NCBI GenBank assembly: GCA_003218885.1
Contig: QHOV01000141.1
Location: 1-38,412, forward strand
From: Verrucomicrobiota bacterium
Lineage (GTDB): Bacteria; Verrucomicrobiota; Verrucomicrobiia; Chthoniobacterales; UBA10450
DNA length: 38,412 nucleotides
Reading direction: 5' to 3'
Each line of letters opens with the position of its first letter. Within the stretch, counting starts at the first letter, position 1. A program made the translations under genes and the position numbers. Under the pieces are notes generated by a model. The model saw only the letters and a list, made by a program, of their open reading frames with translations. It was not told the DNA's origin and searched no databases. Below are positions 3,389-38,412 of this stretch, in pieces.

Positions 3389-4978
3389 ATGGCAATCGTA
3401 GTAGGCAAGACCGAATTGATCCTGATTTGTCTGGTCGCCGTCGCTTTGCTGGCGCTCGTTGCTCGAAAAATTAGGGTCCCGTATCCGATCCTACTCACCT
3501 GCGGTGGCGTGCTCCTCGCTCTGGTTCCCGGTCTTCCCGCGATTCAGCTCGAGCCTCAGCTCGTCTTTAATTTGTTTCTTCCGCCTCTGCTCTATCCCGC
3601 GGCCGTGTTCACGTCCTGGCGAGATTTCCGGATGAACCTTCGGCCAATTCTGACTCTGGCAATCGTGTTGGTCCTGTTAACGATGACGGCGACTGCTTTT
3701 GTGTTCCATGGCTTGACGGGATTGCCTTTGGCGGTTGCGTTTGTGTTCGGCGCCATCATCTCACCACCGGATGCGGTGGCAGCACTGTCGGTGACGCAGG
3801 GTTTGCGTGTGCCGCGCAGGATTATTGTGATCCTGGAAGGGGAGAGCCTGGTAAACGACGCCACTGCTTTCATTTCCTTTCGTTTCGCTGTGGCTGCTGT
3901 TATGACCGGTGCCTTTTCGCTAGGCCAGGCAAGCTTGCAATTTCTTTTCGTGGCGACTGGCGGTGTGTGCGTTGGCCTTGCAGTCGGCTGGCTCGCGACG
4001 CAGGTGCAGAAGCGTTTGGATGATCCGCCTGTTCAAACGATGTTCTCGCTGCTCACGCCCTATCTCGCTTATTTCAGCGGCGAAGCGATCCACGTCTCCG
4101 GGATTTTGGCGGTCGTGATCGCCGGCATTTATTACGGCTGGCGAGCTCCTCGTATTTTGAGCGCGCGCATGAGACTGCAAGCGCTGCCGGTTTGGGAAAT
4201 GGTCGTGTTCATTCTTAACGGAGTGCTTTTCATGCTCATCGGGCTGCAATTGCCGCAGGTCGTCCATTCGCTTGCACCAGGTTCGGCGACTCAGGTCGCG
4301 AAACTCGCGCTATTGGTCGTTTTAGTAATGGTGCTGGTTCGTTTTGCTTGGATATTTGGGACAAGTTATTTGCCGCGGCTTGTAGGCGGCAAGTCCCATC
4401 GTAAAAGTCGCATCCCCTGGCAGCAGACAGCGTTAATCGCATGGACCGGAATGCGCGGCGCCGATTCACTCGCAGGCGCGCTGGCGATCCCGTTCGTGTT
4501 GCCCAATGGCCAGGCATTTCCCGGACGCGACCTGATACTTTTGCTGACGTTCTGCGTGATTTTTGCAACGCTTGTTCTACAAGGACTCACTCTTGCACCG
4601 CTGGTTCGCTGGTTGGGAGTCGTGGACGATCACGTCACTGAAAAAGAAGAGAGACTCGCTCGTTTGAAAGCGAACGAAGCAGCCCTGGAGCGGCTCGAAG
4701 AGCTGGAGACGTCCAGTCGGGCCAGACGTCAGACTGTCGAACGTCTCCGTTCAGAATACGACGATCGTATTCGACAACTACAAATTGAAGATCCAGACGG
4801 AGAAAGCGTCAGCCGATTGTACTCACCTGACTTTGAAGAATTAGCCCGCGAGATGTTGCAAACAGAACGCGATACTGTCATCGCACTCCGCAACGAAGAG
4901 GCGATCAACGATCAGGCATTGCGCCGGATCCAACGCGACATTGATCTGGCCGAAGCGCGGCTTCGTCGGCCAGCTTAA
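3389..4978 (+). CDS. CPA1-type Na+/H+ antiporter
   Basis: Multi-TM, FGAIISPPDAVAAL and EGESLVNDATA motifs, cytosolic coiled C-terminus. Confidence 0.93.
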   Translation: MAIVVGKTELILICLVAVALLALVARKIRVPYPILLTCGGVLLALVPGLPAIQLEPQLVFNLFLPPLLYPAAVFTSWRDFRMNLRPILTLAIVLVLLTMTATAFVFHGLTGLPLAVAFVFGAIISPPDAVAALSVTQGLRVPRRIIVILEGESLVNDATAFISFRFAVAAVMTGAFSLGQASLQFLFVATGGVCVGLAVGWLATQVQKRLDDPPVQTMFSLLTPYLAYFSGEAIHVSGILAVVIAGIYYGWRAPRILSARMRLQALPVWEMVVFILNGVLFMLIGLQLPQVVHSLAPGSATQVAKLALLVVLVMVLVRFAWIFGTSYLPRLVGGKSHRKSRIPWQQTALIAWTGMRGADSLAGALAIPFVLPNGQAFPGRDLILLLTFCVIFATLVLQGLTLAPLVRWLGVVDDHVTEKEERLARLKANEAALERLEELETSSRARRQTVERLRSEYDDRIRQLQIEDPDGESVSRLYSPDFEELAREMLQTERDTVIALRNEEAINDQALRRIQRDIDLAEARLRRPA

Positions 4979-13290: not shown

Positions 13291-13349
13291 CTTTGGCGCC
13301 TGAAGAACTTCGCAACAGAGATACGCGAGACGTGAGTGAAGCGCTTTAA

Positions 13350-13822
13350 CTATTTTGGTCTCTCTCGCGCGGCTTTCCAAATCTGTCGCAGCGGACCTTG
13401 AGCGCCGTAGATCGGATCATTGTCTGGAATTGGCAGAGCCGCGATTCTCTGATCGGCTTTGGGCCGCTCGCTGGGCAAACCCCGAAGCAAATCCCATTCG
13501 CGTCCATCCGGGTACGCCCCGACAACGCCAAAGTCGTCGCGGGCGCCAATGTTCTGGTGCGCCACAAATAAACTCCAAGCACCTCGTGCGTCGTGCTGTG
13601 GTAATGCGTAAAGGGATAAACACCGTTTCGCCACGAGTTGGTCCAGTTGTTCTCGGCAAAGGATTGTTCAATAACGGATGCGCCATCTTCCGCTTCCGTT
13701 GAGAATGCCTGCCGATACAATAGCAAAGGCAGGTCGCTATTTGGGAAAACGCCGTCGTCTTTAAATTTGAACTGTTCGGGTTCAACCAATTCCTGCTGTT
13801 TAACGGTGGGATGGGCTTGCAT
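13350..13822 (-). pseudogene. Cupin-domain protein (COG4297/YjlB-like) disrupted by internal deletion plus frameshift
   Basis: One frame gives FKFKDDGVFPNSDLPLLLYRQAF...NNWTNSWRNGVYPFTHYHSTTHEVLGVYLW; a second frame gives VAHQNIGARDDFGVVGAYPDGREWDLLRG...PDNDPIYGAQGPLRQIWKA. Confidence 0.8.
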
Positions 13823-13933
13823 ATGTAATGCAATATCGAACCGGTCGTGTTGGTCAAATATTCTCATCAGCCAGGTCGCGTATTGCCTTTCCGAATATCG
13901 AGCGTATGGCAACGCAATACCGCTGAAGCTGCC

Positions 13934-15202
13934 ATGCAAGAACCAACAGGCGTGTCTCAATTGGTCGAGCATCTCTTCCGTCATGAGGCGGGAAAAATGG
14001 TGGCGACGCTGACTCGAATTTTCGGGATCGAGCGCTGGAACCTGGCGGAAGATGTGGTGCAGGAAGCGCTCTCGCGCGCGTTGCAGACATGGCCATATCG
14101 CGGGATTCCAGAAAATCCATCCGCCTGGATCATGCGCGCGTCGCGCAATCTCGCGCTCGATGTGATCCGGCGTGAAAAGAGTTTCCGCGCAAAAGAAGCC
14201 GAGATCGCGCGCTTGATCGAGCTCGACGGATCTGCATCCGACGCCGCAATTTTTTCCGAACACGAAATCGCCGACGATCGATTGCGGATGATGTTCGTGT
14301 GCTGTCATCCAGTCATTCCGCGGGAGGCGCAGGTGGCACTGGCATTGAAAACACTCTGCGGCTTCAGCGTGGCGGAAATCAGTCATGCATTCCTGACGAC
14401 CGAAGTGGCGATTGCCAAGCGATTGACGCGCGCGAAACAAAAAATCCAGGAAGCGCAGGTTCCATTCGAGATTCCTGTCGGCGATGAGTTGACGCGGCGG
14501 CTCGATAGCGTTCTGCAATCGCTCTACCTGCTCTTCAACGAAGGTTACAAAGCCTCCACCGGCGAAAACCTCATCCGCGAAGAACTCTGTCAGGAAGCAA
14601 TCCGCCTCACGGAATTACTGGCACAACGTCGCGCCGGGAATAAGCCCAAGACGCATGCCTTGCTCGCATTGATGCTGTTGAATGCCGCGCGGATTCCCAC
14701 TCGGCAAGATGACGAGGGTAACCTGCTTCGACTTGAAGAACAGGATAGGACACGCTGGGATCAGGCGATGATCGCGCGCGGTATGTCTCACCTGCACCAG
14801 TCCGCTGCAGGTGAGGCGCTCAGCGAATATCATCTTCAAGCGGGTATCGCTGCCTGTCACGCAACGGCAACTAATTATTCAGAGACGGATTGGTCCAAGA
14901 TTCTTTCGTTATACGATCGATTGAGAGAGTTGGATGATTCGCCTGTGGTCGCGCTTAATCGCGCAGTAGCCGTCGCAAATGTTAGCGGTCCGAAAGCAGG
15001 ATTGGAAGCAGTGCGCGCCATACGTGAGCGCGAAAGATTAGGTTCGTATTACTTATTGTATTCAGTGATCGGCGAGCTCGAGATGAGGTTGAACAACCGT
15101 GAAACCGCTGCGCAAGAGTTCCGCAAGGCGTTTGAACTGGCCGAGACGAAATCGGAGCGAGCTTTTCTTTTAAAACGATTGCAGCGCTGCCTGGACAGCT
15201 AG
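13934..15202 (+). CDS. ECF-type RNA polymerase sigma factor, ECF42-like (DUF6596/TPR-type C-terminal extension)
   Basis: VVQEALSRALQTWPYRGIPENPSAWIMRASRNLALDVIRREK; FEIPVGDELTRRLDSVLQSLYLLFNEGYKAS; PVVALNRAVAVANVSGPKAGLEAV. Confidence 0.93.
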   Translation: MQEPTGVSQLVEHLFRHEAGKMVATLTRIFGIERWNLAEDVVQEALSRALQTWPYRGIPENPSAWIMRASRNLALDVIRREKSFRAKEAEIARLIELDGSASDAAIFSEHEIADDRLRMMFVCCHPVIPREAQVALALKTLCGFSVAEISHAFLTTEVAIAKRLTRAKQKIQEAQVPFEIPVGDELTRRLDSVLQSLYLLFNEGYKASTGENLIREELCQEAIRLTELLAQRRAGNKPKTHALLALMLLNAARIPTRQDDEGNLLRLEEQDRTRWDQAMIARGMSHLHQSAAGEALSEYHLQAGIAACHATATNYSETDWSKILSLYDRLRELDDSPVVALNRAVAVANVSGPKAGLEAVRAIRERERLGSYYLLYSVIGELEMRLNNRETAAQEFRKAFELAETKSERAFLLKRLQRCLDS

Positions 15203-15223: not shown

Positions 15224-15253
15224 TGTCCTAAGTCGGCGCGCTCGTTCGTCGTA
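15224..15253 (+). promoter_or_regulatory. Candidate ECF sigma promoter: TGTCC-N18-CGTCGTA
   Basis: TGTCCTAAgtcggcgcgctcgttCGTCGTA, 43 nt upstream of the VOC gene; near-identical element at 15689. Confidence 0.7.
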
Positions 15254-15296
15254 TCTCTGACAGAACTAAAAATCACACATCAACAGAAAGGCAAAT

Positions 15297-15686
15297 ATGA
15301 GCAAGTCAGAGAAGAAACACGCAGCAAGCATCGTTTGGTTTGAAATCCCGGCGGACAACCCGGAACGCGCCAAGGCGTTTTATGGCAATTTGTTTGGCTG
15401 GAAGATCAATCCATTTCCCGGCGGAGGCGACTACTGGCATATCGACACCGGCGGCGCAGATGACACTCCGGATGGTGCACTGAAGAGGCGTCAGCGTCCG
15501 CAAGAACCAATCATCAACTACGTCAGCGTGGATTCGGTAGATAAGTACGCCGATAAAACCGCGAAACTTGGCGGCAAAATCTGCATGGCGAAAACGGCCG
15601 TGCCGCAGATGGGCTACTTCGCCATTTGCCAGGATACTGAGGGCAACGCGTTCGGGATTTGGGAGAGCGACGAAAATGCAAAATAA
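15297..15686 (+). CDS. VOC family (glyoxalase/bleomycin resistance-like) protein
   Basis: IVWFEIPADNPERAKAFYGNLFGWKI...GYFAICQDTEGNAFGIWE. Confidence 0.93.
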   Translation: MSKSEKKHAASIVWFEIPADNPERAKAFYGNLFGWKINPFPGGGDYWHIDTGGADDTPDGALKRRQRPQEPIINYVSVDSVDKYADKTAKLGGKICMAKTAVPQMGYFAICQDTEGNAFGIWESDENAK

Positions 15687-15688
15687 TT

Positions 15689-15718
15689 TGTCCTAAACTC
15701 GCCCGCTTGTTCGTCGTA
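15689..15718 (+). promoter_or_regulatory. Candidate ECF sigma promoter: TGTCC-N18-CGTCGTA (second copy)
   Basis: TGTCCTAAactcgcccgcttgttCGTCGTA, 52 nt upstream of the DGPF/YciI gene; same 18-nt spacing as 15224. Confidence 0.7.
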
Positions 15719-15770: not shown

Positions 15771-16172
15771 ATGAACACACAAAATCAAAATGGATACATG
15801 CTGCTGTTTCGCGGAAATGACTGGCACAAAAGTCTTTCGCCGGAAGAAACACAGAAAGTGACGGATCAATGGATGGCCTGGTTCCGCCGGCTGACCGAAC
15901 AAGGCAAAGCCATCGCCGGCAACCCGCTTGAACGCGAAGGCAAAATCGTCTCGGGCAAAAACCGTGTTGTGTCGGATGGTCCATTCGCAGAATCAAAGGA
16001 AGCGATCGCCGGCTACTTTCTGCTCGACGTCGCCAGTCTCGATGAAGCGGTGGCGATCGCGCAGGAATGCCCAGGCTTGCCGTACGGCGTACGCATCGAG
16101 GTCAGGCCCGTCGCGGGCGAATGTCCGCTGGCGAGCGAGCTCAAGCGCGAAGCGGAGTTTGCCACCGTCTGA
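15771..16172 (+). CDS. YciI/DGPF-domain (YCII-related) protein
   Basis: YMLLFRGNDW...VVSDGPFAESKEAIAGYFLLDVASLDEAVAIAQECPG. Confidence 0.93.
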   Translation: MNTQNQNGYMLLFRGNDWHKSLSPEETQKVTDQWMAWFRRLTEQGKAIAGNPLEREGKIVSGKNRVVSDGPFAESKEAIAGYFLLDVASLDEAVAIAQECPGLPYGVRIEVRPVAGECPLASELKREAEFATV

Positions 16173-16259: not shown

Positions 16260-16631
16260 ATGCCACGCGTTGTTCACTTCGAAATTTACACGGAGAATCC
16301 TGAAGTCGTCCGCCCGTTCTACGAGGACGTTTTCGGCTGGAAGTTCCAAAAGTTTGGTGGCCCGCTTGATTACTGGCTTATCACGACCGGTGACGACAAG
16401 CAGCCGGGGATCAACGGCGGCCTCGCCCAGCCTCGGGAAGGCCAGAGTCCCGGCACGTTGAACACAATTGGGGTTTCATCGCTTGATCAATCGGTAAAAA
16501 AGATTGAGCAAGCTGGTGGCCGAATCTGCGTGCCAAGGATGGCAATCCCTGAAGTCGGCTGGCTCGCTTACGCAGAGGATCCGGCCGGTAACGTGTTCGG
16601 AATCATAGAGCCGGATACAAACGCAAAATAA
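16260..16631 (+). CDS. VOC family (glyoxalase-like) protein, paralogue of 15297..15686
   Basis: VVHFEIYTENPEVVRPFYEDVFGWKFQKF...WLAYAEDPAGNVFGIIEPDTNAK. Confidence 0.93.
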   Translation: MPRVVHFEIYTENPEVVRPFYEDVFGWKFQKFGGPLDYWLITTGDDKQPGINGGLAQPREGQSPGTLNTIGVSSLDQSVKKIEQAGGRICVPRMAIPEVGWLAYAEDPAGNVFGIIEPDTNAK

Positions 16632-16681: not shown

Positions 16682-17128
16682 ATGTCAGTAAACACCATCC
16701 GACTACACCGAGTGCTCCGAGCAATGCCGGAGAAAATTTACCGCGCGTTTCTGGACCCCGACGCAATGGGCAAATGGCTACCGCCAAACGGATTCACCTG
16801 CAAGGTTCATCAGATGGACGCGAAAGTTGGCGGCAACTACAGAATGTCGTTCACGAATTTTACGACTGGCAAGAGCCATTCCTTCGGCGGAACCTATGTC
16901 GAACTGACACCGCACAAACGCATTCGCTACACCGACAAATTTGACGATCCAAATTTGCCCGGCGAAATGCAGACGACGATCACGCTGAAAAAAGTTTCGT
17001 GCGGAACGGAACTAAACGTCGTGCAGGAAGGCGTACCCGCGGTCATTCCTGCTGAAGCGTGTTATCTCGGCTGGCAGGAATCGCTGACGCTATTGGCGAA
17101 ACTCGTCGAAGCGGAGATTCCAGATTAA
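16682..17128 (+). CDS. SRPBCC family protein (AHSA1/START-like)
   Basis: RVLRAMPEKIYRAFLDPDAMGKWLPPNGFTC...GGTYVELTPHKRIRYTDKFD. Confidence 0.92.
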   Translation: MSVNTIRLHRVLRAMPEKIYRAFLDPDAMGKWLPPNGFTCKVHQMDAKVGGNYRMSFTNFTTGKSHSFGGTYVELTPHKRIRYTDKFDDPNLPGEMQTTITLKKVSCGTELNVVQEGVPAVIPAEACYLGWQESLTLLAKLVEAEIPD

Positions 17129-17328: not shown

Positions 17329-18429
17329 ATGAGCAAAATAAGAGTCTTAGTTGGCACAAGGAAGGGCGCGTTCATTCTCACGTCGGATGGCGCGCGTAAA
17401 CGATGGAAGGTGAGGGGACCGCATTTTGCGGGCTGGGAGATTTATCACATGAAAGATTCGCCTGTTGACCCGGATCGAATCTACGCCTCGCAAACCAGCG
17501 GTTGGTTTGGGCAGATCATTCAGCGCTCGGACGACGCCGGCAAAACCTGGAAGACACCCGGCAGCAGTCCGGAAGAACTGAAAAGTCCGGACGGCATGAC
17601 CAAAGGGGAAAGCAACAAGTTCGTCTACGACACTTCGCCTGAAACAGGGAAACCGCTGACGACGCACCAATGGTACGATGGCACACAGCATCCTTGGGAA
17701 TTCAAGCGCGTCTGGCATTTGGAACCGTCGCTCCACGATTCCGATCACGTTTATGCAGGCGTGGAAGATGCCGCGTTGTTCGAATCAAAGGACGGCGGGA
17801 AATCGTGGCATGAACTCGCGGGGCTGCGCGGCAGCGATACCGGTCCGAAATGGCAGCCGGGGGCAGGCGGAATGTGTTTGCACACGATTCTCCTCGATCC
17901 CGGTAATCCGAATCGAATTTCCATCGCGATATCCGCTGCCGGCACGTTTCGTACAGATGACGGCGGCAAAACCTGGAAACCAATTAATTACGGCCTGCAT
18001 TCACAATTTCTTCCGGATCCTACAGCGGAAGTTGGCCATTGCGTGCACCGGATCGCGTTCCATCCGTCGCGCCCGAACACGTTGTTCATGCAAAAACATT
18101 GGGACGTGATGCGCAGCGACAACGCGGGTGATTCGTGGCAGGAGGTCAGCGGAAATTTGCCAACCGATTTCGGATTTCCGATCGACGTGCACGCGCACGA
18201 GCCGGAAACGATTTACGTCGTGCCGATCAAGAGCGACTCCGAACATTATCCACCGGATGGAAACGTGCTGCGCGACGCGATGTCAGTCGATTCGCTCGAG
18301 CCGTGCGGCATTTACTTCGGAACAACAGGCGGCCAGGTTTATGCATCGGCCGATGCAGGCGACAATTGGAAGCCGATTGTGCGCGATCTCCCAGCCGTTT
18401 TGTCCGTTGAAGTCCAAACGCTGCGTTGA
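17329..18429 (+). CDS. BNR/WD40/YVTN-like beta-propeller (sialidase-fold 'exo-alpha-sialidase' annotated) protein
   Basis: Repeated Sx[22 protein letters not shown] Asp-box motifs. Confidence 0.9.
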
Positions 18430-32211: not shown

Positions 32212-32285
32212 TGGGCCTGACTGGGCTCGAACCAGTGACCCTGCGCTTATCAAGCGCATGCTCTAACCAACTGAGCTACAGGCCC
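32212..32285 (-). tRNA. tRNA-Ile (anticodon GAT), CCA not encoded
   Basis: Reverse complement GGGCCTGTAGCTCAGTTGGTTAGAGCATGCGCTTGATAAGCGCAGGGTCACTGGTTCGAGCCCAGTCAGGCCCA folds as cloverleaf. Confidence 0.95.
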
Positions 32286-32409: not shown

Positions 32410-32482
32410 TGGAGGCAAGGGGATTCGAACCCCTGACTTCCAGCTTGCAAAGCTGGCGCTCTACCAACTGAGCTATGCCCCC
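32410..32482 (-). tRNA. tRNA-Ala (anticodon TGC), CCA not encoded
   Basis: Reverse complement GGGGGCATAGCTCAGTTGGTAGAGCGCCAGCTTTGCAAGCTGGAAGTCAGGGGTTCGAATCCCCTTGCCTCCA. Confidence 0.95.

Positions 32483-38220: not shown

Positions 38221-38412
<192 letters not shown>

Follow-up and report, generated by a model that had tools for sequence, protein, structure and literature searches.

Two near-identical 30-nt elements on the + strand of the window (the whole 38,412-nt stretch of verrucomicrobial DNA analysed here), at positions 15224–15253 and 15689–15718, are very probably −35/−10 promoters for RNA polymerase bound to an ECF42-type sigma factor whose gene lies just upstream, and would provide the genes VOC1 and DGPF with transcripts of their own. 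This reading, which draws on sequence comparison, sustains the original prediction of an ECF-like −35/−10 pair and of individually transcribed VOC and DGPF genes as sigma targets; it is supported by the co-occurrence of the motif with a DUF6596 sigma gene, by conservation before orthologs despite diverged spacers, by a spacing shared across phyla and by the architecture of Sinorhizobium meliloti ECF42 promoters whose start sites have been mapped.

Each element combines a −35 box, TGTCCTAA (15224–15231 and 15689–15696), with a −10 region, TTCGTCGTA, that includes CGTCGTA (15247–15253 and 15712–15718). Depending on the boxes chosen, the spacer measures 18 nt (TGTCC/CGTCGTA), 15 nt (TGTCCTAA/CGTCGTA) or 19 nt (TGTC/CGTC). 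The first element starts 22 nt past the stop codon of the sigma gene and is predicted to drive VOC1 (15297–15686, +), whose KbpA-like product has a glyoxalase/bleomycin-resistance-like fold; the second starts 3 nt past the VOC1 stop codon and is predicted to drive the gene of a YCII/DGPF-domain protein (15771–16172, +; Pfam YCII, 51.6 bits). The ATG of VOC1 is separated from the end of CGTCGTA by 43 nt and that of DGPF by 52 nt, exactly as described originally; the two boxes and the common 18-nt spacer likewise agree with that description. The pattern TGTCC-N18-CGTCGTA matches the window at these two places and has no match in 100 dinucleotide-preserving shuffles of it.

The sigma gene (13934–15202, +) encodes 422 residues from an ATG at ~13934 that was picked by alignment with relatives, comprising sigma regions 2 and 4, a DUF6596 domain and a TPR-like tail. 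Region 2 is recognized by Pfam (Sigma70_r2, 39.9 bits against a cut-off of 24) and region 4 marginally so (r4_2, 24.2 bits, slightly under the cut-off of 25.7), and residues 8–172 give profile matches to solved ECF sigmas. The C-terminal extension, ~200 residues long and TPR-rich as in the ECF42 group, scores 128 bits for DUF6596, and its tail has a profile match to a designed TPR protein (E 6e-5). The other hallmarks of ECF42 are found as well: a YCII/DGPF gene lies nearby, no anti-sigma gene adjoins (by Pfam, the neighbours are PEP mutase-like, VOC, YCII, VOC, AHSA1 and BNR) and the target promoters have the TGTC-N19-CGTC layout, with CT instead of GG or GA at bases 5–6. By contrast, the sigma has no match to SnoaL, the C-terminal domain that marks ECF41, and carries DUF6596 instead. 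It is the one DUF6596 protein found in the genome, and its nearest relatives among named records come from Verrucomicrobia MAGs. Between the PEP mutase-like gene and the sigma gene, the − strand at 13346–13936 looks like a frameshifted gene remnant; by eye it resembles a YjlB-like cupin, with no supporting Pfam or NCBIfam match.

In the genome as a whole (a soil verrucomicrobial MAG of 2.3 Mb, ~82% complete), TGTCC-N17..19-CGTCGTA occurs three times: as the two window elements and as one N17 match on another contig (C152), which has none of the other conserved bases and probably arose by chance. Allowing one mismatch yielded no additional site with the extended features genome-wide. The motif does not occur at the background frequency that the original prediction had named as incompatible with it. 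The limit of two copies in this genome also speaks against the elements being dispersed repeats or a recent duplication devoid of regulatory role; the spacers of the two window copies are indeed alike, as such an origin would have it, but in relatives the spacers diverge while boxes and spacing persist before unrelated gene families. This explanation is extremely unlikely and already contradicted by existing evidence.

The link between motif and sigma gene extends well beyond this genome. Across 35 congeneric genomes TGTC-N17-TTCGTCGTA has 43 sites, against one for a reversed-pattern control, and every one of the 43 carries a C at position 5 although the pattern left that base free. Motif and DUF6596 sigma are both present in 24 of these genomes, both absent from 9 and discordant in 2, one in each direction (Fisher p = 1.4e-6). 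The two exceptions are likely explained by a contig edge and by a sequence variant: in G206 the site occupies 3908–3937 of a contig of 3942 bases, which stops 5 nt past it, where the sigma gene is expected, and in G082 CGTC is replaced by CGTT (L133). At the level of the order, the broad pattern TGTCC-N17..19-CGTCGTA returned mostly chance-like matches and was sharpened by adding TT before CGTCGTA. The resulting strict form, TGTCC-N16-TTCGTCGTA, occurs in 32 of 197 genomes, all 32 of which have the sigma; put differently, it is present in 32/51 sigma-bearing and 0/146 sigma-less genomes (p = 7e-24), and variants account for some of the 19 sigma-bearing genomes that lack it. Both p values are too small, the genomes being related, yet the direction of the association is unambiguous.

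Such an association is a correlation, and the elements might be ECF-type promoters read mainly by another ECF sigma of the same cell, a concern sharpened by the fact that ECF41 promoters, judging from the RpoE9 sequence, share the TGTC-N19-CGTC layout. That the neighbouring sigma is not the main reader is nonetheless unlikely: all 32 motif-bearing genomes of the order have a DUF6596 sigma, the sites cluster beside its gene, and the present genome has a single such sigma.

The elements are also conserved in front of orthologous genes. Among VOC1 orthologs sharing 60% identity or more, 17/26 have the strict motif in front of them and 24/26 a relaxed pattern; for DGPF homologs the corresponding figures are 16/32 and 21/32. 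Both sets of figures are inflated by the retrieval of part of the loci via the motif itself. Elsewhere in the order, the element precedes YCII, VOC, PhnB-like, AHSA1, BNR, DUF899, GFA, DoxX-like and RibD_C-type genes, which are ECF42-type families. In one relative (L113), two closely spaced elements, the first apparently broken or fused, stand before YCII-like reading frames and a third before a DUF899-like gene.

Three further genes follow DGPF on the + strand, namely VOC2 (16260–16631), an AHSA1/SRPBCC gene (16682–17128) and a BNR-repeat gene (17329–18429). The original observation that the sigma, VOC2 and SRPBCC genes lack an equivalent element is accurate for the window, and among relatives it extends to the sigma gene (0/31) and VOC2 (0/10); for SRPBCC it breaks down, as 2 of 7 orthologs (L097 and L098, both from another family of the order) have one. 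An ortholog of the BNR gene (L101) is likewise preceded by an element, and the whole cluster may therefore belong to the regulon even though neither SRPBCC nor BNR is preceded by one in the window. No terminator-like site was found on the + strand between DGPF and VOC2/SRPBCC. Farther downstream, the window contains two tRNA genes (32410–32482 and 32212–32285, both −) and, at the contig edge, the 3′ end of a 16S rRNA gene (38229–38412, −).

The spacing of the boxes is shared with distant bacteria. Upstream of target-family genes in the window and in 80 named loci drawn from many phyla, TGTC-N19-CGTC occurs 28 times, whereas the other spacings from 13 to 26 occur at most 3 times each; this count replaced one over whole loci, which was too noisy outside Verrucomicrobia. 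The promoters of S. meliloti RpoE10, an ECF42 sigma, have the same form (TGTCGGATCGGTTGCGGCTGGTGCGTC and TGTCGGCAGGCGGCATCCTCCTTCGTC, i.e. TGTC-N19-CGTC) and precede operons encoding glyoxalase-like proteins (PMC6180224). Exact across phyla and matched in S. meliloti, the layout is thus that of the ECF42 group. The start of SMc01149, mapped by two methods, lies 12 nt past the C of CGTC (PMC6180224). This offset coincides with a conserved purine of the present sites, so that transcription is predicted to start at G15259 and, on the same basis, at G15724, both on the + strand. In 67 aligned sites this position, number 36, is a purine in 94% of cases; additional preferences are A at position 8 (91%) and T at position 19 (81%). 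One ECF42 motif of S. meliloti overlaps the mapped start and is not induced, so a site may carry the motif and still be inactive.

A pair of boxes with constant spacing might also be a bipartite operator for a DNA-binding regulator, or the elements could belong to an RNA leader. The boxes, however, are neither palindromic nor direct repeats, and the fixed 19-nt spacing together with the start-site purine fits promoters; an RNA element was rejected for want of any Rfam match at the sites, and a scan beside the elements for sigma-70-like promoters gave 2 matches against 2.9 expected, which is not above chance. An operator or leader identity is accordingly very unlikely.

If the elements are sigma-dependent promoters, region 4 of the sigma would read TGTCC(T/C/A)(A/G)A and region 2 would open the DNA at TTCGTCGTA, with transcription beginning at the purine 12 nt past the C of CGTC (~15259 and ~15724). 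VOC1 and DGPF would each start a separate transcript, from which VOC2 would probably, and SRPBCC possibly, be transcribed by read-through. The TPR-like tail of the sigma presumably gates the activity of the protein, as has been proposed for ECF42 (PMC8999054). Autoregulation through this type of promoter was considered and rejected on account of the sigma upstream regions of relatives described above; as the sigma gene lacks the element, no positive loop is expected here. It would probably be made from a separate promoter, for which TTGCCT-N16-TATGGC (13883–13910, +), distinct from the ECF-type elements and kept upstream of the sigma gene in several congeners, may be a tentative candidate. In another genus of the family, a YCII gene and an element lie upstream of the sigma gene (L130, L140, L104), so that, unlike in the window, read-through could there place the sigma gene under its own control.

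Comparison with characterized systems makes this a well-supported new case of the known ECF42 kind, with a clade-specific −35 (TGTCC, not TGTCGA). RpoE10 of S. meliloti shares with it a TPR-rich tail, an adjoining YCII gene, the TGTC-N19-CGTC layout, glyoxalase-like targets, a very small regulon and no evident autoregulation; RpoE10, too, seems not to activate its own gene (PMC6180224). Its −35 is, however, TGTCGG rather than TGTCC(T/C/A)(A/G)A, and its YCII gene precedes the sigma gene and is co-transcribed with it, whereas in the window VOC1 and YCII follow the sigma gene with one promoter each. The ECF42 sigmas of Streptomyces venezuelae (Sven_0747 and others) and ECF-10 of Pseudomonas putida, compared via a review, have in common with the present one a TPR-rich C-terminal extension, a YCII-domain neighbour and no anti-sigma (as reviewed in PMC8999054), but loci of those phyla that fall in the Q clade discussed below have TGTCGA where TGTCC is found here. 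ECF41 sigmas (SigJ; RpoE9 of S. meliloti) resemble it in their fused C-terminal extension and, by the RpoE9 sequence, in the TGTC-N19-CGTC spacing; they differ in having a SnoaL_2 extension and a TGTCACA −35, as opposed to DUF6596/TPR and TGTCC. For soil Verrucomicrobia, a group difficult to culture, the window provides a very small, concrete and testable regulon of an ECF42-type sigma, together with a motif precise enough to annotate ECF42-type regulons in MAGs.

The −35 varies with the lineage. It starts with TGTCC in Verrucomicrobia and at several loci of Bacteroidota and Planctomycetota; proteobacterial, actinomycete, chloroflexal and other loci have TGTCGA instead, frequently paired with a CGAC −10. 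Two Q-type sigmas in the window's own order (L026, L015) are also accompanied by TGTCGA-type YCII promoters. Residue 162, in the sigma4 helix-turn-helix and a Lys in the sigma of the window, pairs with −35 base 5 as K/C in 19 cases, Q/G in 20, A/G in one and K/G in one (L160), whose promoter assignment is doubtful; the pairing is not independent evidence, since the tree contains two changes and one independent pair, roughly a single deep split. Columns 155, 232 and 329 of the sigma separate the K and Q groups as well, and no clear promoter was found at the locus of L217, a K-bearing actinomycete within the Q clade. We offer as a hypothesis, somewhat short of probable, that ECF42 uses two promoter codes, in which Lys162 sigmas (Verrucomicrobia, Bacteroidota and some Planctomycetota) would read TGTCC and Gln sigmas TGTCGA, with one residue setting −35 specificity and two orthogonal systems able to share a cell. 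If true, this link between a single residue of the recognition helix and base 5 of the −35 would give a simple handle on promoter specificity and on orthogonal sigma parts. Genome G077 has both a Q-type DUF6596 sigma (L026), its YCII gene preceded by a TGTCGATT/CGACTAT promoter, and TGTCC-type sites elsewhere (L098, L123, L124); two ECF42 systems may operate in parallel within this cell.
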